From NCBI GenBank assembly GCA_937934595.1, contig CALGZA010000018.1:1-64000 (forward strand): a stretch of 64,000 nucleotides of DNA. Reading direction: 5' to 3'. The position numbers and the translations under genes are program-made. This document shows, in pieces, positions 6,889 through 52,784 of the stretch. Positions within the stretch are counted from its first letter, which is position 1. Every line of letters begins with the position of its first letter. This DNA comes from an uncultured Verrucomicrobiales bacterium (GTDB lineage: Bacteria; Verrucomicrobiota; Verrucomicrobiia; Verrucomicrobiales; Akkermansiaceae). Below the pieces are notes generated by a model, which had not been told where the DNA came from, made no database searches, and was given only the letters and a program-made list of their open reading frames with translations.

Positions 6889-7890
6889 TTAACCGCGCCT
6901 CCTACGCAGCAAAACACCTAAAGTAGCTAACCCAAATAAAGATACGCTACTAGGCTCAGGAACAGCATCTCGCGCTAATTCAATCGACTCTGGAAACTGA
7001 GTACCCTCTAGCGTAAAACGAAACTGCGCGCCAGAATTAAGCGCCTGCCCATCAGAATCCATCACATTAAATCTTGAAGAAGTAATATAAATCTGATCCA
7101 CATCATTATTAAAATCACCAATCAAGTTAGGAAAAATATTATTGTTCTCTAAACGGCCATCACGGTTTGAATCCATAGCCGCCAGCCCTACAAATGTAGC
7201 ATCTGTATTTAAAGTCTCATTAAATACCCCCCATGAATCAGCTCCAGCAGGAGCTGTACCCTCCAGAATATTAACAACATCATTGCCGATATCATTAGTC
7301 TGAGGCCTTACATAAAATGGCGTATCTGCTGACAAACCAAATTGTGCCGGCCCACCCGGATTTGTACCCCAATTGGGAGGAACCTCAATGATTCCCCCAT
7401 TTATGTGATCATACATCACACTTTCACCCGTTCCTCCAATGAGAGACATAGAGTTACCAAATACTTGGAACGCACCTGTCACACCTAAGGGATCCTCAAA
7501 TCCAGCAGTAATAGAAAAACCCTTAACATTCGTAAGATTTTTTAACAAAACTGTTCCAACTGGCGCTGTTGTCAAATCTGGTAATACTGTACCAGTCGCT
7601 CCAATAATTTCAAAATCGGCAGAGTGCGCCTGATTACCATCCCACGGAATAAGATCAATAGAGTAATTAACCAATGTACCATCTCTTGTCATAAGCACAT
7701 CGTTCGCATTTGCTGAACCACTAAAACCCGTCACCACAACCCCGTTTACAGGTGAAGTGTCTACAGCACCATCTCCGACCCAAGATGAATTCCCATCCCA
7801 GGTTAGACCTATCGCAGCATAACCATGGGAAGCTAAAGCCCCTAATATTAGCAATTGTGTTATTATTTGTTTTTTCATAATTTTTATCAT
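6889..7890 (-). CDS. PEP-CTERM sorting domain-containing protein
   Basis: C-terminus AVPEPSSVSLFGLATLGVLLRRRRG; N-terminal signal peptide. Confidence 0.9.
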   Translation of the reverse strand: MIKIMKKQIITQLLILGALASHGYAAIGLTWDGNSSWVGDGAVDTSPVNGVVVTGFSGSANANDVLMTRDGTLVNYSIDLIPWDGNQAHSADFEIIGATGTVLPDLTTAPVGTVLLKNLTNVKGFSITAGFEDPLGVTGAFQVFGNSMSLIGGTGESVMYDHINGGIIEVPPNWGTNPGGPAQFGLSADTPFYVRPQTNDIGNDVVNILEGTAPAGADSWGVFNETLNTDATFVGLAAMDSNRDGRLENNNIFPNLIGDFNNDVDQIYITSSRFNVMDSDGQALNSGAQFRFTLEGTQFPESIELARDAVPEPSSVSLFGLATLGVLLRRRRG

Positions 7891-8277
7891 TTATGAGTTA
7901 ATAGTTAACTCATTATGAAAAATAGTTTAAACTAAAAGAAACATCACGTCAAATTATAAATAATATCATTAATTATCATAAAATATTAACAAATTATATA
8001 ATTAAGATACAGAACCCCCTATAAGTCTTGCGAGAATGACTAAACACCCAAAAAAAAATCCTAAATACCACCCAATCACAATACTGCACACGCTAGCCAC
8101 ACCCCAGAAAACTCACAGTCACAAAAAATACAGCACCGACCGCGCCGGAGTCCCAGCCTACCCTAACAGGCATTAATCACGAAATAACCCACACACACAT
8201 AGCTGTAACCTTACACTATGGAAAAATAGTTAATATTCACGATTATACAAGGATTCTAGACGCACAATCATGACCAG

Positions 8278-39479: not shown

Positions 39480-40823
39480 CTACTCCCCAAAACTGCTAAA
39501 CTTCTCATAAAAAACCGACCAGCACTCCAAGAACCCAGTAGCAAAAACCTCAGGTCGCAGCTTGATCCATTCATTCAGCTCATCCATCTCAAACCAAACC
39601 GCGTGCTCAACCTCACTGCAAGGAAACCTCAACGCACCATCATAACGTGCCACATAAAGGCCAATGTGCTCCCATCCAGTATTCTCACAAGGCCTTATCT
39701 GAGCAATATGCTGCACCTCAGTATCAATGCTTAACTCCTCTTTAAGCTCCCTAACAGCACAAGCATCATAACTCTCCCCAGACTCCAAATGCCCAGCAGA
39801 ACTACTATCCCACGCCCCCGGAAAATTATCCTTAAGAACACTCCTCTTCTGCAGTAAAACCTCCTTCTTTTTATTAAAAACAAGCACATGCACCGCCCTA
39901 TGTAATAAATGTTCAGCATGCACCACACTACGTTTTTCCTGCCTCACAACCACATCATCATCATCAACCACATCAAAAACCTCATCTCCACTCTGAGGTA
40001 AATCCCTCAACGGATGATCATCATACATCTGCGTAATCTTGATCCACTGATCCAGGCTAATCTCTTCAGCCCGCGCCGTCACCGGCAAGCCAAGCTCAGC
40101 AGAAACATCCTCCCAACAAGCCGTATCAGGTAACTGCTTCTTAACCTGCTTCCTCCTCTGAGAAAACCCCCTCCTCACCAACTCATCAAACAACCTCTTA
40201 TCATAAACCTCATCGCTCAACCGAGGAACACAAGTCATCACCGTAGAATCAATCAGCGGCCTAGGATGAAAAGCCTCTGGTGGCACCGTCTTCACCGGCT
40301 TACTCTCCCACTCACTCTGCATCCTCAATGATAAAACCCCATACGCCTTCGTCCCATGCTTAGCCACTATCCGGTCTATAAACTCCTTCTGCAGCATAAG
40401 AACAGCCCTAACCACAGGAGTCGGACTCTTCATAAAATTACGCATAATAGCCCCACCAGCACTATATGGTAAATTCCCTAAAAACTTTATCGGCGCATAC
40501 TTAAACAAACTCCTCACATCAAAACGAGCACCATCAAAATGATGAACCTCCACATCAGCCCTACCCTTGAACTTCTCCCCTAAATACTCCGCTAAACGCG
40601 CATCAAATTCAACCAGTATAACCCGCTTAACCTTACCAAGTAAATGCTCAGTCAGCGCCCCAGTCCCTGGCCCCACCTCCACCACAGTATCATCAGAACA
40701 CGGATCTAACTGATCCACTATCCAACGAGCCACATTCGCATCACATAAAAAATTCTGACCCAGCTTCTTACTCGGTATCACCCCATTCTGCTTAAGAACA
40801 TCTATAATCTCACTCGCTATCAT
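39480..40823 (-). CDS. rsmA: RsmA (KsgA) 16S rRNA dimethyladenosine transferase fused to C-terminal Nudix hydrolase
   Basis: KKLGQNFLCDANVARWIV...VVEVGPGTGALTEHLL...FLGNLPYSAGG; then Nudix box GHLESGESYDACAVRELKEELSI. Confidence 0.93.
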   Translation of the reverse strand: MIASEIIDVLKQNGVIPSKKLGQNFLCDANVARWIVDQLDPCSDDTVVEVGPGTGALTEHLLGKVKRVILVEFDARLAEYLGEKFKGRADVEVHHFDGARFDVRSLFKYAPIKFLGNLPYSAGGAIMRNFMKSPTPVVRAVLMLQKEFIDRIVAKHGTKAYGVLSLRMQSEWESKPVKTVPPEAFHPRPLIDSTVMTCVPRLSDEVYDKRLFDELVRRGFSQRRKQVKKQLPDTACWEDVSAELGLPVTARAEEISLDQWIKITQMYDDHPLRDLPQSGDEVFDVVDDDDVVVRQEKRSVVHAEHLLHRAVHVLVFNKKKEVLLQKRSVLKDNFPGAWDSSSAGHLESGESYDACAVRELKEELSIDTEVQHIAQIRPCENTGWEHIGLYVARYDGALRFPCSEVEHAVWFEMDELNEWIKLRPEVFATGFLECWSVFYEKFSSFGE

Positions 40824-42825: not shown

Positions 42826-43230
42826 ATGCCAAGCCCAGAAAAATGGAAAAAACTAGAATCTCTCATGCTCAAACTAGGCATCCTCCCAGATGACATCATC
42901 GAAAAATACATCAAAGGATCTGGTAGCGGAGGACAAAAAATTAATAAAACAGCCAGCTGCGTCTACCTCAAACACATCCCAACAGGAATCGAAGTCAAAT
43001 GCCAAGCGCAAAGATCACGGGAACTCAACCGTTTCATCGCAAGAAAAGAACTCTGCGAAACATTCCAAGAAAAAATACTAGGTATCCAATCAGCAAGACA
43101 ACAAGCCAGAGAAAAAATCCGACGCCAAAAACGAAGACGATCACGTAGACAAAAAAACAAAATGTTAGACAACAAATCAAAACAAGGCGAAAAAAAACAA
43201 CTCCGCCAAAAACCAAACCAACAAGATTAA
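42826..43230 (+). CDS. Peptide chain release factor-like GGQ protein (ribosome-rescue type)
   Basis: GSGSGGQKINKTASCVYLKHIPTGIEVKCQAQRSRELNRFIARKEL plus basic tail RRQKRRRSRRQKNK. Confidence 0.85.
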   Translation: MPSPEKWKKLESLMLKLGILPDDIIEKYIKGSGSGGQKINKTASCVYLKHIPTGIEVKCQAQRSRELNRFIARKELCETFQEKILGIQSARQQAREKIRRQKRRRSRRQKNKMLDNKSKQGEKKQLRQKPNQQD

Positions 43231-43267: not shown

Positions 43268-44524
43268 ATGTCAGGAAAACGCTCGCTTACTAATATTCAC
43301 ATCCACTCACTCACAAATGAGAACTCAATAGAAGAACTAGAAACCAGACTCGCCCCAAAACTATACCCCAGCGTCAAACCCATCATGCCCATGGGTAAAG
43401 TGAATGCTCACAGAGTCAACAAAACCTGGAAAGCCCTCTCCCAAGAGCCTAATAAAGACATACTAGACCAATGGACCACAGAAAATATCGAGTCCTTTGA
43501 CGGCAATATCGAAAACTGCATCGGCTCAATCAAAGTCCCACTCGGTATTGCTGGCCCCCTCAGAGTAAACGGCCTCTTCGCTCAAGGAGACTACCTCATC
43601 CCACTTGCCACTTCAGAAGCTGCTCTCGTAGCCAGCTACCACCGCGGATCTTGCGTAATCTCTGCCAGCGGAGGCTGCTCATCCATGCTCCTCTACCAAG
43701 CCTTAAACCGCTCACCAGCATTTGTCTTCTCCTCATTAGCTAATGCTGGAAAATTTGTCGCCTGGGCCATGCAAAAATTCAAAATATTCCAAGACATAGC
43801 CAATGCCACTACTTCTCACGGAAAACTCGTAGACATAGGAACCACTATAGAAGGTAACCACGTCTACCTGAACTTCGAATACACCACAGGTGACGCATCC
43901 GGACAAAACATGGTTACCATCGCCACTCAAGCAGTATGCGATTTCATCAAAGAAAATTGCCCAGTCCACATCATTAACCTCTACGTCGAAGGAAATCTAT
44001 CAGGTGACAAAAAAGCTAGCTCTCAAGCATACAACTCCGTCAGAGGGAAAAAAGTATCATCCGAAGCCAACATCTCACGTGAAATAATAGAAAAATACCT
44101 CCACACCACTCCAGAACAAATGGTCGAATACTGGAGAGTATCCGCTCTTGGCGGCGTACTCAGCGGCACACTAGGAGTGCAAGGTCATTTCGCCAATGGA
44201 CTCACCGCACTCTACTTAGCTACCGGCCAAGATGCCGCCTGCGTAGCTGAATCAGCTATGGGTGTCACCAGATTTGAAATAAACCCAGACGGCGGACTCT
44301 ACGCCGCAGTCACTCTTCCATGCATCATGGTAGGAACCGTTGGAGGTGGAACAGGACTCCCATCACAAAAAGCATGCCTTGACCTTATGAACCTACACGG
44401 CGCAGGAAAAAGCAATGCCCTCGCCGAGGTCTGCGCTGGCCTACTCCTCGGTGGAGAACTCTCCATCATCGCAGCATTAGCTTCTGGAAGCTTCACTAAA
44501 GCACATAAAAAACTAGCTCGATAA
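43268..44524 (+). CDS. Hydroxymethylglutaryl-CoA reductase
   Basis: ENCIGSIKVPLGIAGPLRVNG...PLATSEAALVASYHRG...GDASGQNMVTIAT...GGGTGLPSQKACLDLM. Confidence 0.9.
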   Translation: MSGKRSLTNIHIHSLTNENSIEELETRLAPKLYPSVKPIMPMGKVNAHRVNKTWKALSQEPNKDILDQWTTENIESFDGNIENCIGSIKVPLGIAGPLRVNGLFAQGDYLIPLATSEAALVASYHRGSCVISASGGCSSMLLYQALNRSPAFVFSSLANAGKFVAWAMQKFKIFQDIANATTSHGKLVDIGTTIEGNHVYLNFEYTTGDASGQNMVTIATQAVCDFIKENCPVHIINLYVEGNLSGDKKASSQAYNSVRGKKVSSEANISREIIEKYLHTTPEQMVEYWRVSALGGVLSGTLGVQGHFANGLTALYLATGQDAACVAESAMGVTRFEINPDGGLYAAVTLPCIMVGTVGGGTGLPSQKACLDLMNLHGAGKSNALAEVCAGLLLGGELSIIAALASGSFTKAHKKLAR

Positions 44525-44595
44525 TCAATCAAATCAATGATACAAAAATTAAAATCAATTAAAGTAATACAAAGATCGGTGCTATAACCATACTC

Positions 44596-45468
44596 ATGCG
44601 CTGGTGGACATACCAAAAAGAACGATTCCCAATTTTCCAACACGGACTATTAGTTGCAGCATTTAGCTCTTCTGCAGTAGCCTATACCTCACTTTTATGC
44701 AGCACCACTCCCAGCTGGCGTGCATTCCTAGTAGCATTCATAACAGTATTCCTATTCTTCCTTCAGCTAAGAATAGCAGACGAATTTAAAGACGCAGAAG
44801 AAGATGCTAAATACCGTCCACACAGAGCAGTACCCCGCGGATTAATAAGCCTTAAAGAACTCGGTATAGTATTCATCTCTACCACTATAATACAGCTCAT
44901 CCTAACCATCTGGCTAGACTACAGACTACTCATACTTCTATTCATCACCTGGACATACCTGTCCCTAATGAGTGTAGAGTTCTTCGCACGTGACTGGTTA
45001 AAAACCAGACATATTACCTACTTATGGACCCACATGCTTATCATGCCACTTGTAGACCTCTTCGCTACTGCATGCTTATGGCTACCCAATGAATCCAAAC
45101 CTGATAACTTAATCTACTTCATCATCGCCAGCTTCTTCAACGGTATAATCATCGAGATAGGACGGAAACTAAGACAACCTCAAAATGAACAAACAGGCGT
45201 CCCCACTTACAGTAAACTCTGGGGCCTAACAAATGCATCCCGAGCTTGGCTCAGCTGCATGGCTATCACTGCTCTTTTTGCCATCCTAGCAGCCTCTAAA
45301 ATCAACTTCGCTCTTCCTGCCACACTAATCTTAGCTCCCATTCTACTCCTCGCAACATGGTCTTACCATCATGCCAATACCATAAAAACTAAACACTTCG
45401 AGCTCATCTCCGGAATATGGACACTCGCTCTATACACCTCACTCGGCATCATTCCACTTCTAACCTAA
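44596..45468 (+). CDS. UbiA-like prenyltransferase superfamily membrane protein
   Basis: Polytopic; RIADEFKDAEEDAKYRPHRAVPRGLISLKEL resembles the UbiA NDxxDxxxD + RPxxxG region. Confidence 0.7.
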   Translation: MRWWTYQKERFPIFQHGLLVAAFSSSAVAYTSLLCSTTPSWRAFLVAFITVFLFFLQLRIADEFKDAEEDAKYRPHRAVPRGLISLKELGIVFISTTIIQLILTIWLDYRLLILLFITWTYLSLMSVEFFARDWLKTRHITYLWTHMLIMPLVDLFATACLWLPNESKPDNLIYFIIASFFNGIIIEIGRKLRQPQNEQTGVPTYSKLWGLTNASRAWLSCMAITALFAILAASKINFALPATLILAPILLLATWSYHHANTIKTKHFELISGIWTLALYTSLGIIPLLT

Positions 45469-45474
45469 TAACCC

Positions 45475-47976
45475 ATGATTATTAAACCTCATCAAACCAA
45501 ACTCTCACACCTCCTAGGCGGTAAAGCATCCGCTCTAGCAGCACTATCAAATGCTAACTTCTGTAACATCCCACCATGGTTCGCTGTGACAGATATCCAA
45601 AATACAGAACAAATCACAACCGAAGCAAAAAAACTCCTAACACATTCATTCGCCATTAGATCATCCGCACACGGTGAAGACGGAACAGAACACTCATTCG
45701 CAGGACAATACGACTCATTCCTCTACGTGAATCAAAAAAATCTAATAAACAAAATAACCGCCGTCCTAAATAGCAACAACAGCCAACACCTTAATTCTTA
45801 CCGTAAAACAAAAAACGTAACCCACACGCCAAATCATAACGTTACTGCAATTATACAAAAAATGCTAACACCCACCGTCAGTGGAGTCGCATTCAGCGCA
45901 GACCCAGTAACAGGAGACACCACCACAACCATCATCTCAGCACTCTGGGGAACAGGTTCCGCACTCGTTTCGGGAGAAGAAAACGCAGACACCTGGACAC
46001 TAAAACAAAATAAAATCACCAAAGAAATAATCGCCCAGAAAACGCACCAACACATCGCAGGATCAGAAAGCAACGAAGGCATAAAACGCATTAATGTCCC
46101 TCAAGAAAAAATATCCAAACCCTGCCTAACAGAAACCCAAATCCAAGAAGTTGCCGAACTCGCAAAACACTGTGAAGAACACTTCGGATCCCCCCAAGAT
46201 ATCGAATGGGCCATCGAAAACAACACCTTATTCCTCCTACAGAGTCGCCCCATCACCACCCTAAAACCCAAACCAAAAGCCACCCTACCTCTCACTGTAT
46301 GGGACAATAGCAATATCGCAGAAAGCTATTCAGGTATCACCTCTACCCTCACATTCTCATTCGCAGAACGTATCTACGAACATGTCTATAGAGAATTTTG
46401 CATCCTACTCTCAGTACCAAAAAACAGTATAAAAAAACATGATGCCGTCTTCCCTAAAATGCTCGGCCACATCCACGGCCACGTCTACTACAACCTCAAC
46501 AGCTGGTATCACATACTCGCCATGCTACCAGGTTTCTCCATAAACCGTGGATTCATGGAACAGATGATGGGAGTCAAAGTCCCCATGCCTGATGAGGTCA
46601 TCGAAAACATTGTAAATCAAACTAAAACCAACAAAATATATGACGGATGCTCACTACTCAAAATGATATTCGGACTCATACGTAATCAATACAAACTAGA
46701 AAAAAACATCAGCAGATTCTATCAAAGACTCAATAATGCCCTAAACTCACCAAAAACTCCACTAGATGAAATGTCTCAAGAACAACTCATCGCACACTAT
46801 AACAACCTAGAATCAAAACTTCTAAAACGCTGGGATGCTCCATTAATAAACGACTTCTTTGCCATGATCTACTACGGTATCCTAAAATCACTCTGCCAAA
46901 AATGGCTAAAGGATAGCTCTCTGCAAAACACCTTATTACTAGACAGTGGAGATATTATCAGCGCAGAACCACCCAGGCGCATCGCTGAAATGGCGGACAT
47001 CGTAAGAAATAACACAAACCTAAAAAACACCCTAGCATCAAACATTTCAGAACAGAAAAAACGCAGCGAAATAGCCAACCACCCCGAGCTCAACAACGCA
47101 CTCAACACTTACCTCAATAAATTTGGTGACCGCTGTCTCGAAGAATTAAAACTAGAATCCCCATCAGTACGAGACCACTCAGCAGCACTCCTAGCCAGCA
47201 TCAGCGCCATGGCTAGCCGAGCACCGCATCAAACAAAATCCCCAACCAACAACCAAGAACTAAACCAAGCAAGAAAAAAACTTTCCTGGCTGAAACGCAA
47301 AATATTCAATTGGATACTTAAACAAGCTAAAAACCGAGTCCGCGACCGCGAAAATCTAAGATTTGAACGCACAAGGCTCTTCGGCAGAGTACGCCAAATA
47401 ATGATACAGATAGGCAATAAGCTAGCTGTGAATAATCAACTCAACAACCCCAGAGATATATTCTTCCTAGAGCTAAAAGAAGCCATCTCAGGCGCTTCTA
47501 CTAACTATCACAACATAGTAAACAAAAGAAAAACCGAAGATGAAATCCATCGTAACCAAACCCCACCACCAGATAGATTCCACACAGTCGCACCCATCAC
47601 CCAATATGATTCATTTGAATCAGCCCTCCCCTATACACCACCTGATGGAGATAACATCTCAGGAATAGGCGCCTGCCCAGGTATAGTCAGAGGAAAAGTC
47701 AGAGTTGTATTAGACCCTCGTGACGCTACACTCAAAGAAGGAGAAATCCTCGTAGCCCAACAAACCGATCCAGGCTGGGTCGTCCTATTCCCAGCAGCCT
47801 CAGGATTACTCGTTGAACGCGGCTCACTACTCTCACACTCAGCTATCGTAGCAAGAGAACTAAACCTACCATGCGTCGTCTCTATACAAAATATCACCCA
47901 GATACTCAAAACAGGCGACATTGTAGAAATGGACGGAAAATCCGGAACCATAACTCTAATAAAAGATGAAAACTGA
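45475..47976 (+). CDS. PEP synthase/rifampin phosphotransferase-like dikinase (ATP-grasp + unknown middle domain + phosphohistidine domain)
   Basis: FAIRSSAHGEDGTEHSFAGQYDSFL, GVAFSADPVTGD, DIEWAIENNTLFLLQSRPIT; C-term GLLVERGSLLSHSAIVARELNLPCVVS. Confidence 0.88.
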   Translation: MIIKPHQTKLSHLLGGKASALAALSNANFCNIPPWFAVTDIQNTEQITTEAKKLLTHSFAIRSSAHGEDGTEHSFAGQYDSFLYVNQKNLINKITAVLNSNNSQHLNSYRKTKNVTHTPNHNVTAIIQKMLTPTVSGVAFSADPVTGDTTTTIISALWGTGSALVSGEENADTWTLKQNKITKEIIAQKTHQHIAGSESNEGIKRINVPQEKISKPCLTETQIQEVAELAKHCEEHFGSPQDIEWAIENNTLFLLQSRPITTLKPKPKATLPLTVWDNSNIAESYSGITSTLTFSFAERIYEHVYREFCILLSVPKNSIKKHDAVFPKMLGHIHGHVYYNLNSWYHILAMLPGFSINRGFMEQMMGVKVPMPDEVIENIVNQTKTNKIYDGCSLLKMIFGLIRNQYKLEKNISRFYQRLNNALNSPKTPLDEMSQEQLIAHYNNLESKLLKRWDAPLINDFFAMIYYGILKSLCQKWLKDSSLQNTLLLDSGDIISAEPPRRIAEMADIVRNNTNLKNTLASNISEQKKRSEIANHPELNNALNTYLNKFGDRCLEELKLESPSVRDHSAALLASISAMASRAPHQTKSPTNNQELNQARKKLSWLKRKIFNWILKQAKNRVRDRENLRFERTRLFGRVRQIMIQIGNKLAVNNQLNNPRDIFFLELKEAISGASTNYHNIVNKRKTEDEIHRNQTPPPDRFHTVAPITQYDSFESALPYTPPDGDNISGIGACPGIVRGKVRVVLDPRDATLKEGEILVAQQTDPGWVVLFPAASGLLVERGSLLSHSAIVARELNLPCVVSIQNITQILKTGDIVEMDGKSGTITLIKDEN

Positions 47977-49066
47977 AATTCAAAACCACGCACAATTTAA
48001 TTCAATCCGCTACGCCAACTGCTGGGAAGATGCAGATATCCTCATGGAAGCCATCCAGCCTAAAGGTAAACATTGCCTCAGCATCGGATCCGCCGGCGAT
48101 AATTCCCTATCCATGCTAGCCGAGGGCGCCTCCCAGGTAACCATTGCTGAAATGAACCCCGCACAAGTCGCATGCATCAAATTACGTATCGCCGCATACA
48201 AAACTCTAAACCACAGAGATCTATTAATCCTATTAGGCGAAAAACCAGAACAAGAAGTATCCCGTAAAACACTATTTGATCGTTGCAAAAAAGAACTCGA
48301 CCAAAAAAGCACCACATACTGGGAGCATTTCCCCATTCAGATCAAAACCGGCTTTGGGAAAGCCGGAAAGTTTGAGAACTATTTCCGCATCTTTCGTGAA
48401 AAAGCCCTACCCCTAGTCCACTCACGTAAGACAATAAACAACCTACTCGAAATAAAATCACCTACAGAACGACAAACCTTCTATGAAAATAAATGGAATA
48501 CTTGGCGGTGGAGACTATTATTCAAGATCTTCTTTTCCCGCTTCGTCATGGGCAGACTGGGACGAGACCCTTCATTCTTCAAATACGTTAAAGGATCAGT
48601 CGCTGAACGCATTCTCACCAGAGCCAAGCACGCTCTTGTAAATCTAGACCCCTCTACTAACCCATACTTAAAATGGATCCTAAACGGAAACTATGGCTCA
48701 TCTCTCCCTCACGCACTTCGTGAAGCTAACTTTGAGAAAATAAGAACTAACCTACATAAAATTACTATCATCGAGGGAACCCTTGAATCAGCACTCACTA
48801 AAAACAAATATGACGCATTCAACCTGAGTGATATATTCGAATACATGTCAGATGAAAACACCCAAAATCTCCTAGAAAAAATCCACTCACAGGCCAGCCC
48901 AAAAGCTCGCATAGCGTACTGGAATATGCTCGCACCAAGACAATCTAACAAAAAATTACACCATAAAATCAAACCACTAAATAACACTTCATCTAAACTC
49001 TTTCTTCAAGATAAAGCCTTCTTCTACTCTAATTTCATTGTAGAGGAAACCACCTCGCCCCTTTAA
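47966..49066 (+). CDS. DUF3419 / BtaA-like AdoMet-dependent 3-amino-3-carboxypropyl transferase family
   Basis: NSIRYANCWEDADILMEAIQPKGKHCLSIGSAGDNSLSMLAEGASQVTIAEMNPAQVACIKLRIAA. Confidence 0.82.
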   Translation: MKTEIQNHAQFNSIRYANCWEDADILMEAIQPKGKHCLSIGSAGDNSLSMLAEGASQVTIAEMNPAQVACIKLRIAAYKTLNHRDLLILLGEKPEQEVSRKTLFDRCKKELDQKSTTYWEHFPIQIKTGFGKAGKFENYFRIFREKALPLVHSRKTINNLLEIKSPTERQTFYENKWNTWRWRLLFKIFFSRFVMGRLGRDPSFFKYVKGSVAERILTRAKHALVNLDPSTNPYLKWILNGNYGSSLPHALREANFEKIRTNLHKITIIEGTLESALTKNKYDAFNLSDIFEYMSDENTQNLLEKIHSQASPKARIAYWNMLAPRQSNKKLHHKIKPLNNTSSKLFLQDKAFFYSNFIVEETTSPL

Positions 49067-49073
49067 ATTACAA

Positions 49074-50402
49074 ATGCCTATCACCCCTATCATCATAGTC
49101 ATCACCTCTCTTCTATTACTGTTGAGTGCCTCTACATGGATGATGAAGAAAAAAATCATCGGAGGAGAAAACGCCAGAAAAACCGTTCACCTCGGCATGG
49201 GGGTCATATGCCTGTCATTCCCATTCCTATTCAATGACCCACTGCCTGTCTGGATACTCGCAGGCATCGCCGTAACTAGCATTCTAGGAGTAAAAGTAAC
49301 TAACCTACGCTCAAGCATAGGCTTATCCTTATTCTCAGTAAAACGCCTATCTATAGGAGAACTCATCTTTCCCATCGCTGTCGCCTGGCTCTTTACTCTG
49401 AATATCTCTACTGAAAAACACACCGCTATTTACTACACCATTCCCCTATTACTACTTACTCTAGCAGACACAATGGGAGCCATTGCAGGCACTCGGTTTG
49501 GCCAGATCATCTATAGAACAGCATCTGGAAAAAAAAGCATAGAAGGCTCACTCGCATTCCTCATCACCGCTCTTATCTGCACCTTCACCCCACTGTTCTT
49601 ATATACTGAATTCAATACCTTACACATCATTCTCATCGCCCTAACGGTCGCCCTACTTACCACCGCCTTAGAAGGAATTTCCGGAATGGGTATGGATAAT
49701 CTACTCATTCCCATCGGCTCATATTTCTTGCTAGAATACTACACCAACATATCCACACCATCTCTTACCCTCAGACTAGTATGCATGCTCCTACTCACCT
49801 TATTACTCATTTGGACCCGTAATAAGCACCACATGAACGGCGGTGCCCTCATCACAGCTGCTCTACTTTGCTTCATATCTCTAATGCTCGGTGGACCTCT
49901 CTGCCTCACAGCATGCTTATTCATCCTCATAAGACACATTCTAGCACTAAAAAAACTCCCACAAAATCTCCACCACACCCATTCCATAGACACCATATTA
50001 GCCATCTCAGTCCCCGCTATCACCTGGCTTACATTAGGAAAAAAACTCATAATTGAGCCCCACTTAGGCCAAACATTTTTCATCATATCACTCGCCATCA
50101 CTATAGCCATGCTTCATGCTGGCACTCAAAAAATTATCCATTCAGAAACCAATCAAAAAAAATCATTCATCCTTAAAAGCACCTGCATGGCTGCATGTAT
50201 CGCCTCCCTAACATACCCACTACTAACCAACTCAGAATTCCTATTCATCCTACTCACACTCACTCTAATCTGCCCCTTCTGCTCAGCACTCTATTTCAAA
50301 ATAAGAAGCCGCGGATTACCTAGTATTTTTGACTGGATCACGCTATCCACCATCACAGGAAGCTCCACAAGCATCATCTATTTCAGCTATGTACATTATT
50401 AA
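49074..50402 (+). CDS. Phytol/dolichol kinase-like (CTP transferase family) polytopic membrane protein
   Basis: GGENARKTVHLGMGVICLSFPFLF...LTLADTMGAIAGTRFGQIIYRTASGKKSIEGSLAF. Confidence 0.75.
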   Translation: MPITPIIIVITSLLLLLSASTWMMKKKIIGGENARKTVHLGMGVICLSFPFLFNDPLPVWILAGIAVTSILGVKVTNLRSSIGLSLFSVKRLSIGELIFPIAVAWLFTLNISTEKHTAIYYTIPLLLLTLADTMGAIAGTRFGQIIYRTASGKKSIEGSLAFLITALICTFTPLFLYTEFNTLHIILIALTVALLTTALEGISGMGMDNLLIPIGSYFLLEYYTNISTPSLTLRLVCMLLLTLLLIWTRNKHHMNGGALITAALLCFISLMLGGPLCLTACLFILIRHILALKKLPQNLHHTHSIDTILAISVPAITWLTLGKKLIIEPHLGQTFFIISLAITIAMLHAGTQKIIHSETNQKKSFILKSTCMAACIASLTYPLLTNSEFLFILLTLTLICPFCSALYFKIRSRGLPSIFDWITLSTITGSSTSIIYFSYVHY

Positions 50403-51300
50403 ACCATCACCAAACCTACCACCTCACCAACAATCAATATTCCTCCAAGGAGCCAGCTACATCATAGCTGAAAAGAATATGATACTCGGAGTCTGGACTG
50501 AAAATACTCCCAATATTGAGGGAACTGCCACAGTGACTATTGGCGCATGCCAGCTCGAAGGCGAAAACCCAATACAGTTCTTAATAACATGCATCAATCA
50601 CATAAATTCCTCTCACCCTAACAGAAAAATAATCGGCCCAATGAACGGAAACACCTGGATGAAACATCGCCTAATCGTCCAGACCAGTAAAAGACCTAGC
50701 TTCCTCATGGAGCCCACAGAACCTCTAACACTACTTAGCATATTCGAAGCAGCAGGATTCGAAACACTGTCACTTTACTCCTCATCAACTATTGATCTAA
50801 CTACAGAACAACCGGACTTCTCACGCGTCGAAAAAATAGTTTCAGATCAAGGAATCACCATCAGACAGATCAACACAAATGAATTTGAAAGCGATCTCAC
50901 TAAAATATACAGCCTCTGCCTATCTGCTTTCTCTCACAACTTCCTATACACTCCCCTTCCAAAAGAAGCATTCATGCACTCTTACCTATCAAAAAAAGAA
51001 CTCATTGACCCCGAGCTCGTCATACTAGCATTCAAAGATGAATCCCTAATAGGTTTTTTATTCTGCCTACCAGATTCAAAACCACATACAGTAATAGCAA
51101 AAACACTAGCTACTTGCCCAAAACACAGAACGACCGGTCTAGGAACACTACTAGTCGCTAAAGCACATCAACAAGCCAAAACCAAAGGATATAAAGAAAC
51201 AATTCATGCCCTTCAACATGAGAGCAATTCCTCATTGAGAATCAGCCAAAGATTCAACGCTGAAAAATTCAGAACCTATGCACTTATGATCAAAAAATGA
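50389..51300 (+). CDS. GNAT family N-acetyltransferase
   Basis: C-terminal GNAT signature KTLATCPKHRTTGLGTLLVAKAHQQAKTKGYKETIHALQHESNSSLRISQRFNAEKFRTYALM; start more likely MYIIKPS (50389) than the ORF-track 50329. Confidence 0.78.
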   Translation: MYIIKPSPNLPPHQQSIFLQGASYIIAEKNMILGVWTENTPNIEGTATVTIGACQLEGENPIQFLITCINHINSSHPNRKIIGPMNGNTWMKHRLIVQTSKRPSFLMEPTEPLTLLSIFEAAGFETLSLYSSSTIDLTTEQPDFSRVEKIVSDQGITIRQINTNEFESDLTKIYSLCLSAFSHNFLYTPLPKEAFMHSYLSKKELIDPELVILAFKDESLIGFLFCLPDSKPHTVIAKTLATCPKHRTTGLGTLLVAKAHQQAKTKGYKETIHALQHESNSSLRISQRFNAEKFRTYALMIKK

Positions 51301-52784
51301 ACCTAGTAAATCAACTTAAAAAAAGAGCTGCAGAACATCCTAACAGAACAGCACTGATTGATAAAAATCATAAAATAAATTATCAAAAACTTTACCAAAA
51401 AGTAAGCCAAGGTGCAGACTTCCTAAAGCATCAAGGCCTATCAAAAGGAAACTGCATACTTCTATTGGAACCAATCAGTATCAATTTATATATCCATCTT
51501 CTAGCTATCTTCCACGCCGGTATGACCGCTATGATCATTGACCCCTCCACTAACAAAAAATCACTCAAACACTGCCTCCAGCTCTCTCCTCCAGATGCAT
51601 TCATCGGTTCACCAAAGGCACATCTACTCCGCCTCCTGCACCCCGAGCTATGGAAAATCAAAAAAAACATACATACCAACAGATGGATTCCTTTCAGCAA
51701 AAAATGGACCTTAAAAAAACAAGCGCGCCATAACCTCACTTCGCCTCAATCAGTAAATCCTACTAGCGCCGCACTCATCACATTCACCAGTGGCAGCACA
51801 GGCATGCCCAAGGCCGCATGCAGAACACATGGATTCCTTCAAGCACAGCATAAAGCACTCTCAGAATCCCTAGACTTTAAAGAAAATGAAGTAGACCTCG
51901 TCACTCTGCCCATCTTTGCCATCGCTAACTTAGCATCAGGCATGACCTCCGTAATTGCAGACACAGACCTCCGCTACCCCGCACGTGCCAATGCTCCAGC
52001 CATCTTGAAACAATGCCAACAACATAAAATCACCCGCTGCGCCGCATCCCCCGCCTTTTTCAAAAAGCTCTTTGATCACTGCCCGCTACCTCCATTTAAA
52101 TCAATCTACACAGGAGGCGCACCAGTATTCCCTCACCTCATCGAAAATATCCAAAACAACCATCCTAATCTAAAAATAGTAACAGTCTACGGCTCCACAG
52201 AAGCAGAACCCATATCGCATATCGCTTGGGATGAAGTGTCAGAAGCAGACCGCTATGCTATGAAAAGCGGTAAAGGATTACTCGTCGGCTCCCCAGTTGC
52301 CGCCACAAAAGTGATGATCTACCAAAAAAATGATGACCAAATAGGTCACATTGCTGTTACTGGTGATCATGTATTAAAAGGATATCTTAATAACAAAGGA
52401 AACGCCGAAACCAAGATACAGCTAAATGACTCAATCTGGCACCTCACTGGGGACATGGGATACCTTGACCAGAAAAACAGGCTTTGGCTAATGGGCCGAG
52501 AATCTGCTACATTTGAAATCGCAGGTAAAAAAATCTACCCCTTCGGAATAGAGTGCGCTGTCATGCACCACCCCATGGTATCTCGCTGCGCTGTTATTCA
52601 GCATGAAAACAGAAACCTCCTTTGCATAGAAACTAACCACACTTGCATCGAAAATATAACCACCCACTTCCCAGAATATAACTACCTAGAATGTATACCA
52701 GTTAACCACATCCCCATGGATAAAAGACATAACGCCAAAGTAGATTACCCCGCCCTCACATCCATGCTAAGTAATACTAATTAA
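51297..52784 (+). CDS. AMP-dependent synthetase/ligase, OleC-like
   Basis: FTSGSTGMPKAACRTHGF; DLVTLPIFAIANLASGMTSVIADTDLRYPARANAPAI; VTVYGSTEAEPISHI; LTGDMGYLDQKNRLWLMGR. Confidence 0.88.
   Translation: MNLVNQLKKRAAEHPNRTALIDKNHKINYQKLYQKVSQGADFLKHQGLSKGNCILLLEPISINLYIHLLAIFHAGMTAMIIDPSTNKKSLKHCLQLSPPDAFIGSPKAHLLRLLHPELWKIKKNIHTNRWIPFSKKWTLKKQARHNLTSPQSVNPTSAALITFTSGSTGMPKAACRTHGFLQAQHKALSESLDFKENEVDLVTLPIFAIANLASGMTSVIADTDLRYPARANAPAILKQCQQHKITRCAASPAFFKKLFDHCPLPPFKSIYTGGAPVFPHLIENIQNNHPNLKIVTVYGSTEAEPISHIAWDEVSEADRYAMKSGKGLLVGSPVAATKVMIYQKNDDQIGHIAVTGDHVLKGYLNNKGNAETKIQLNDSIWHLTGDMGYLDQKNRLWLMGRESATFEIAGKKIYPFGIECAVMHHPMVSRCAVIQHENRNLLCIETNHTCIENITTHFPEYNYLECIPVNHIPMDKRHNAKVDYPALTSMLSNTN

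Follow-up and report, generated by a model that had tools for sequence, protein, structure and literature searches.

A conserved seven-gene bacterial cluster with an HMG-CoA-reductase-like protein and a tentative route to a lipid-like product

The described systems that come closest to the gene cluster analyzed here each share some of its enzyme families. Phytol activation and tocopherol prenylation by VTE5, VTE6 and VTE2 combine an alcohol kinase of the cytidine triphosphate (CTP) type with a UbiA-family transferase, and the ebo cluster, an operon widely scattered among bacteria, centres on a UbiA-like protein, EboC, and has a product that is, to our knowledge, obscure. BtaA, of the betaine lipid pathway, belongs to the DUF3419 family, and canonical bacterial btaA genes have a gene for a btaB-type methyltransferase directly downstream. 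Rifampin phosphotransferase and the prodigiosin ligase PigC/RedH join an ATP-binding domain to a swivelling His domain and have no pyruvate domain. Here, a stretch of 64,000 nucleotides (hereafter the window) from an uncultured Verrucomicrobiales bacterium of the Akkermansiaceae (assembly GCA_937934595.1, contig CALGZA010000018.1, positions 1 to 64,000, forward strand) was found to carry seven co-directional open reading frames (ORFs) at 43268-52784 (plus strand). These encode, in this order, a protein like 3-hydroxy-3-methylglutaryl (HMG)-CoA reductase (HMGR), a UbiA-like protein, a dikinase of the phosphoenolpyruvate (PEP) synthase type, a DUF3419 protein, a kinase-type membrane protein (P0005), a tandem GNAT acyltransferase and an acid ligase. 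The seven genes are one conserved unit, with a core order kept far beyond chance, and the reading that we favour, tentatively, is that of a self-contained, horizontally mobile cluster for an amphiphilic lipid-like product.

The ORFs are separated by gaps of 71, 6 and 7 bp or overlap by 11 bp (47966/47976), 14 bp (50389/50402) and 4 bp (51297/51300). A sequence-only reading of this DNA had described seven closely spaced ORFs on one strand with three overlaps, all at coordinates that were confirmed here, and had taken them for one operon, naming the absence of the set from other genomes as what would speak against it. P0005 was searched for in 57 genomes of close relatives, the host counted among them, and was present in 14, where its surroundings held the seven genes in unchanged order. 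The same order was found on an alphaproteobacterial plasmid of Roseinatronobacter, where the HMGR gene is cut by the start of the record. A DUF3419 alignment scanned against 85,462 species genomes gave at least 516 relatives, and the 80 best of them were retrieved; the counts of loci rest on 90 non-duplicate loci, 41 of them roomy, i.e. with space on both flanks. The order HMGR-UbiA-PEP-DUF3419-kinase was kept in 86/86 testable loci, which span at least 13 phylum-level groups, and the ligase gene directly followed the GNAT gene in 73/73 loci, this pair lying downstream of the core in 62 and upstream in 11. All seven genes were present in 34 of the 41 roomy loci. Distances between the seven proteins were correlated at 0.53-0.86 (50 loci), compared with 0.15 or less when labels were shuffled (200 shuffles for each of four pairs tested). 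No further widely recurring neighbour gene was found beyond the seven, some apparent families being generic or antisense artefacts of simple ORF calling. The set thus survived the comparison with other genomes, and the reading as one operon was borne out.

Occurrence of the cluster is sporadic (18/291 Verrucomicrobiota, 6/276 Gammaproteobacteria), and its gene order is strictly held in Akkermansiaceae, Trueperaceae and Desulfobulbus as well as on an alphaproteobacterial plasmid, which implies that the product must be useful. Cultured carriers include Haloferula sp. BvORR071, Luteolibacter pohnpeiensis, Rubritalea profundi and Desulfobulbus rhabdoformis. In a tree of the concatenated proteins the loci grouped mostly by phylum; one tight group, however, mixes Gemmatimonadota, Latescibacterota, Actinomycetota, Rhodothermota, Bacteroidota and one gammaproteobacterial bin, which suggests horizontal transfer of the cluster, with the caveat that bins can contain foreign contigs. 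Within the host's genus, one genome (G006) has a complete set in two halves about 440 kb apart on one contig, with HMGR-UbiA-PEP at ~926-931 kb and DUF3419-kinase-GNAT-ligase at ~484-489 kb. Another (G011; L144:6377-12822) has lost the DUF3419, kinase and GNAT genes, the initial DUF3419 codons being fused in frame to the ligase gene, and its HMGR frame is broken near codon 55; this locus has the appearance of a cluster in decay, unless the assembly is at fault. Among 16 relatives checked, HMGR was found in 11/11 carriers of the kinase gene and elsewhere only in G011.

The first gene (43268..44524, plus strand) encodes a class I HMGR-like protein of 418 amino acids (Pfam PF00368, HMG-CoA_red, 8.7e-113) with an altered substrate pocket, a relative of the enzyme inhibited by statins. 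In solved class I HMGR, Lys735 forms a salt bridge to the carboxylate of HMG, and Ser684 makes a polar contact (PMC9500038). Alignment of 64 cluster sequences, with human HMGR numbering for Glu559, Arg590, Ser684, Lys691, Lys735, Asp767 and His866, revealed E82, R126, D247, K248, K249, N310, D322 and H413 as invariant. The fold, the DKK loop and the catalytic residues of class I HMGR are shared, Glu559, Lys691, Asp767 and His866 being kept as E82, K248, D322 and H413, and Arg590 is invariant too. By contrast, the position of Ser684 is occupied by Glu (E241) in 64/64 sequences, and that of Lys735 has no Lys but Met, Val or Ser, depending on the placement of a one-residue gap. The genomic setting also differs: HMG-CoA synthase was found in only one of 46 cluster-bearing genomes, and not in the host (0/1), whereas DXR, of the methylerythritol phosphate (MEP) pathway, was present in 43/46, and the HMGR gene, found in 41/46 and nearly always in single copy, travels with six unrelated partner enzymes. 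The earlier assignment of this protein to mevalonate synthesis is probably wrong, and a role in the mevalonate pathway was rejected on the scarcity of HMG-CoA synthase, the prevalence of DXR and the two changed contacts with the HMG carboxylate. The cluster protein is probably not an HMG-CoA reductase.

Similar changes were seen in HMGR homologues elsewhere. Vibrio and Photobacterium carry lone copies with 54-59% identity to the cluster HMGR; in the two Vibrio sequences aligned, Asp takes the place of Ser684 and Lys735 is missing, and the copy of V. fluvialis (L129:11944-13206) adjoins yccS and modABC, with no cluster around it. A Streptomyces homologue has Glu at the Ser684 position as well. 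An unexplained HMGR in Streptomyces having a complete MEP pathway is noted in a 2026 review (PMC13001223).

The DUF3419 protein (47966..49066, plus strand; 366 amino acids; Pfam DUF3419 1.3e-64) most likely brings in the amine, as a probable 3-amino-3-carboxypropyl transferase from S-adenosylmethionine (SAM). Motifs SAGDN and NLSDIFEYM are near-invariant in its family. Of the earlier label 'BtaA-like', family membership stands. Identity to canonical BtaA, however, is only ~20-26%, and the SAM site reads SAGDN instead of SGGCN; the cluster protein belongs to a subfamily separate from true BtaA. No BtaB methyltransferase was found in the cluster or among recurrent neighbours, the DUF3419 protein being accompanied by six other partners. 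Because this partner is missing, the cluster is not a betaine-lipid operon; betaine lipid was rejected as the product, and the suggestion of a betaine-like lipid was not supported. Beside the cluster family, another DUF3419 gene lies on a Rhizobium plasmid (L137:1677-4065) next to genes for a CoF-synthetase-type protein, a metallo-beta-lactamase (MBL) hydrolase and an oxidoreductase, and may belong to a different DUF3419 cluster.

The product of the fifth gene (49074..50402, plus strand), P0005, is a polytopic membrane protein of 442 amino acids, assigned from family motifs to the CTP-dependent lipid-alcohol kinase type (SEC59/VTE5/DGK1-like), with an extra C-terminal membrane half. P0005 itself had no Pfam match. 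Its family conserves RKxxH, GExxF, DxxAxxxG...KKSxEG and E...GxDN (27 and 71 sequences), which we take to be the motifs of the CTP-dependent lipid-alcohol kinases, and a few of 27 members gave weak profile matches to CTP_transf_1 (one member, 2.5e-07) or to DUF92 (four members), presumably the VTE6 family. In the AlphaFold model of P0005 (predicted local distance difference test, pLDDT, 92), the only sensible fold match was a weak one to CdsA (4q2g/4q2e, E 0.01-0.05), a CTP-using membrane enzyme. By sequence, no useful solved structure was found for the DUF3419, kinase or GNAT families.

The second gene (44596..45468, plus strand) encodes a membrane transferase of the UbiA superfamily, with 290 amino acids (Pfam UbiA 1.9e-11) and a non-canonical second metal motif. 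The first Asp motif, D62xxxD66xxxD70 (DxxxDxxxD), is invariant, whereas GRKxR...E replaces the second motif, DxxxD, also in alignment to chlorophyll synthase. Apart from having a UbiA-like protein, the cluster has no gene in common with the ebo cluster, and the match to the EboC model reached 16.5 bits only. The third gene (45475..47976, plus strand) encodes a dikinase of 833 amino acids of the PEP-synthase/rifampin-phosphotransferase type, with domains PPDK_N (residues 52-268, 2.6e-56) and PEP-utilizers (754-824, 9e-25), the latter including an invariant swivel His788, and no C-terminal PEP/pyruvate-binding domain among its Pfam matches. This succession of an ATP domain and a swivelling His domain matches the architecture of rifampin phosphotransferase, and the nearest solved chain is the Listeria enzyme 5fbs (annotated as PEP synthase, E 6e-66), which we take to be the rifampin phosphotransferase of Listeria. 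By contrast, scores against the models of rifampin phosphotransferase and PigC/RedH were 303-317 bits, with cut-offs of 999-1350, and the genetic context is another one; a rifampin resistance enzyme was rejected at 303 bits, with a cut-off of 999. At one locus (L103:4659-9346), a class III aminotransferase gene, with prodigiosin PigE as best model (343 bits, under the cut-off), and another PEP-like ORF are inserted between the dikinase and DUF3419 genes.

The last two genes encode a tandem GNAT acyltransferase of 303 amino acids (50389..51300, plus strand; Pfam Acetyltransf_1 3.1e-08) and an AMP-forming acid ligase of 495 amino acids (51297..52784, plus strand; Pfam AMP-binding 3.1e-51; NF006754 1.2e-109). 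The AlphaFold model of the GNAT (pLDDT 95) matches the fold of the tandem GNATs MAB_4324 and mycothiol synthase (E ~1e-13). In the ligase, TFTSGSTG and Lys481 are conserved, and the best NCBIfam match is the acyl-CoA ligase family PRK09274, with 367 bits. Its likeness to the beta-lactone synthetase OleC, proposed earlier, was reduced to a loose one within the same superfamily, with an RxHxxxxAQ-type signature in common; OleC models gave 212-224 bits, with cut-offs of 850-900, and no OleA, OleB or OleD is encoded in the cluster. The Ole hydrocarbon/beta-lactone route was rejected on these scores and on the absence of a thiolase or any other Ole gene from the operon. Because the GNAT and ligase genes travel as a pair, they may represent acyl-CoA supply plus acyl transfer. 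The divergent cluster of L106 lacks the GNAT gene; there, a formyltransferase gene (PF00551; 12402-13193, minus strand) that overlaps the gene for the dikinase may be a non-orthologous replacement of the GNAT by another N-acylating type, in keeping with acylation of an amine. Genes for exporters of the MMPL/HAE3 type, distantly HpnN-like, were found within the operon or at its end at two loci (L068:7857-10004, L075:12509-14785), which fits a hydrophobic product. Cytochrome P450 genes flank the cluster at L046:18356-19630, L049:15001-16365, L091:14922-16259, L099:2447-3739 and L104:2433-3728; that of L046 is directly upstream of the GNAT gene, where L056 has a short ORF (~7671-7949) that by eye resembles a P450 C-terminus.

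From the families of these enzymes, and in an order that is a guess, a route of six steps can be proposed. The ligase would activate a carboxylic acid, and the tandem GNAT would acylate an amine with the acyl-CoA; this amine could be provided by the DUF3419 enzyme, which would take the 3-amino-3-carboxypropyl group of SAM and place it on a lipid acceptor. The HMGR-like enzyme would act not on HMG-CoA but on another CoA thioester, taking it to the alcohol by a four-electron reduction. Phosphorylation of the alcohol would fall to the kinase of the CTP type together with the dikinase and its swivelling His, and the unusual UbiA protein might then join the activated chain to the acceptor in the membrane. 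The modified lipid proposed earlier is plausible, and the modified isoprenoid proposed beside it is possible. That the products constitute a new class of N-acylated, aminocarboxypropyl-bearing lipids, made in at least 13 phylum-level groups, and that the HMGR homologue has been diverted from mevalonate synthesis to the reduction of some other acyl-CoA to its alcohol, is an idea that we put forward with less than even confidence.

Several observations weigh against this route. The substrate and the product are proposals from enzyme families, the succession of steps is a guess, and the DUF3419 protein is only distantly related to the BtaA proteins that have been assayed. UbiA proteins normally require allylic diphosphates, production of which would have to be assumed here. 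An Arg or Gln directly precedes the lost Lys735, so that carboxylate binding is still possible. The HMGR gene is absent from five of the 41 roomy loci and, genome-wide, from five of the 46 cluster-bearing genomes, and its step would for this reason be dispensable or supplied elsewhere; no substitute reductase was found at three HMGR-less loci (L057, L073, L082). The clues from the formyltransferase and the exporters come from one and two loci, respectively.

Other products were considered. A phytol-salvage-like route, in which an isoprenoid acid would be converted to the alcohol and, by kinase and then dikinase, to the diphosphate, with UbiA prenylating an aminocarboxypropyl-bearing acceptor, would account for the VTE5/SEC59-type motifs and weak DUF92 matches of the kinase, the intact motif 1 of UbiA and the P450 genes adjoining some clusters. 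Compared with VTE5/VTE6/VTE2, however, a soluble dikinase would do the second phosphorylation, Asp of UbiA motif 2 is replaced by Arg/Lys, and neither head-group nor cyclase genes belong to the cluster, no aromatic-acceptor or cyclase gene recurring near it. The squalene/phytoene synthase family was found in 37/46 cluster genomes, which agrees with an isoprenoid, but not in the other nine, including that of the isolate Desulfobulbus rhabdoformis; a product requiring squalene or carotenoid is unsupported as a requirement, and the salvage route as a whole appears unlikely. Isoprenoid chemistry could also enter through a true HMGR fed by leucine breakdown, HMG-CoA being obtainable from leucine without HMG-CoA synthase, with mevalonate or a derived isoprenoid incorporated as a building block. 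A mevalonyl group, for example, would be activated by the ligase and moved by the GNAT in the manner of the fungal siderophores of the fusarinine type, whose SidI/SidF pair these two enzymes recall. The general fold and the catalytic Glu, Lys, Asp and His would suit this explanation, which we judge quite unlikely in view of the two altered HMG contacts, the lack of HMG-CoA synthase in 45 of 46 genomes and the separability of the GNAT-ligase module, present where HMGR is absent.

A secreted small metabolite, either a metallophore or a signal, would use the aminocarboxypropyl group as a metal ligand, as in nicotianamine-type compounds. Transfer of this group from SAM is frequent in metallophores (PMC10491745). 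The sporadic distribution of the cluster suits secondary metabolism, and exporter genes occur at two loci; by contrast, two of the seven proteins are polytopic membrane enzymes from families with hydrophobic substrates, and neither siderophore receptors nor metal transporters recur as neighbours. We judge such a metabolite quite unlikely. A variant operon for the betaine lipid diacylglyceryl trimethylhomoserine (DGTS) has in its favour the membership of the DUF3419 protein in the BtaA family and, given the distant subfamily, the altered SAM site and the missing BtaB-type methyltransferase, is by far the least probable alternative. The lipid-like product made by a self-contained cluster is the reading tentatively retained here.

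No description of the cluster was found in the open-access literature (DUF3419, BtaA and combinations of the families), in agreement with the earlier remark that it was not a recognised, characterised pathway. It fits none of the known pathways tested and is apparently complete in itself, and we rate the pathway, within the scope of open-access papers and with its function inferred, as new in kind and assembled from parts of known families. The cluster offers a testable answer to the puzzle of a lone HMGR in bacteria with a complete MEP pathway. If this HMGR family has changed its substrate, mevalonate annotations derived from such genes would be wrong.

Upstream of the cluster, a short gene with an RF-1 domain (window 42826-43230), rescue-factor-like, ends 37 bp short of the HMGR gene, with which it may be co-transcribed; other loci have different genes ahead of the cluster. 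Further upstream, at 39480-40823 (minus strand), a single ORF encodes a fusion of a KsgA-type rRNA adenine dimethylase and a NUDIX domain.

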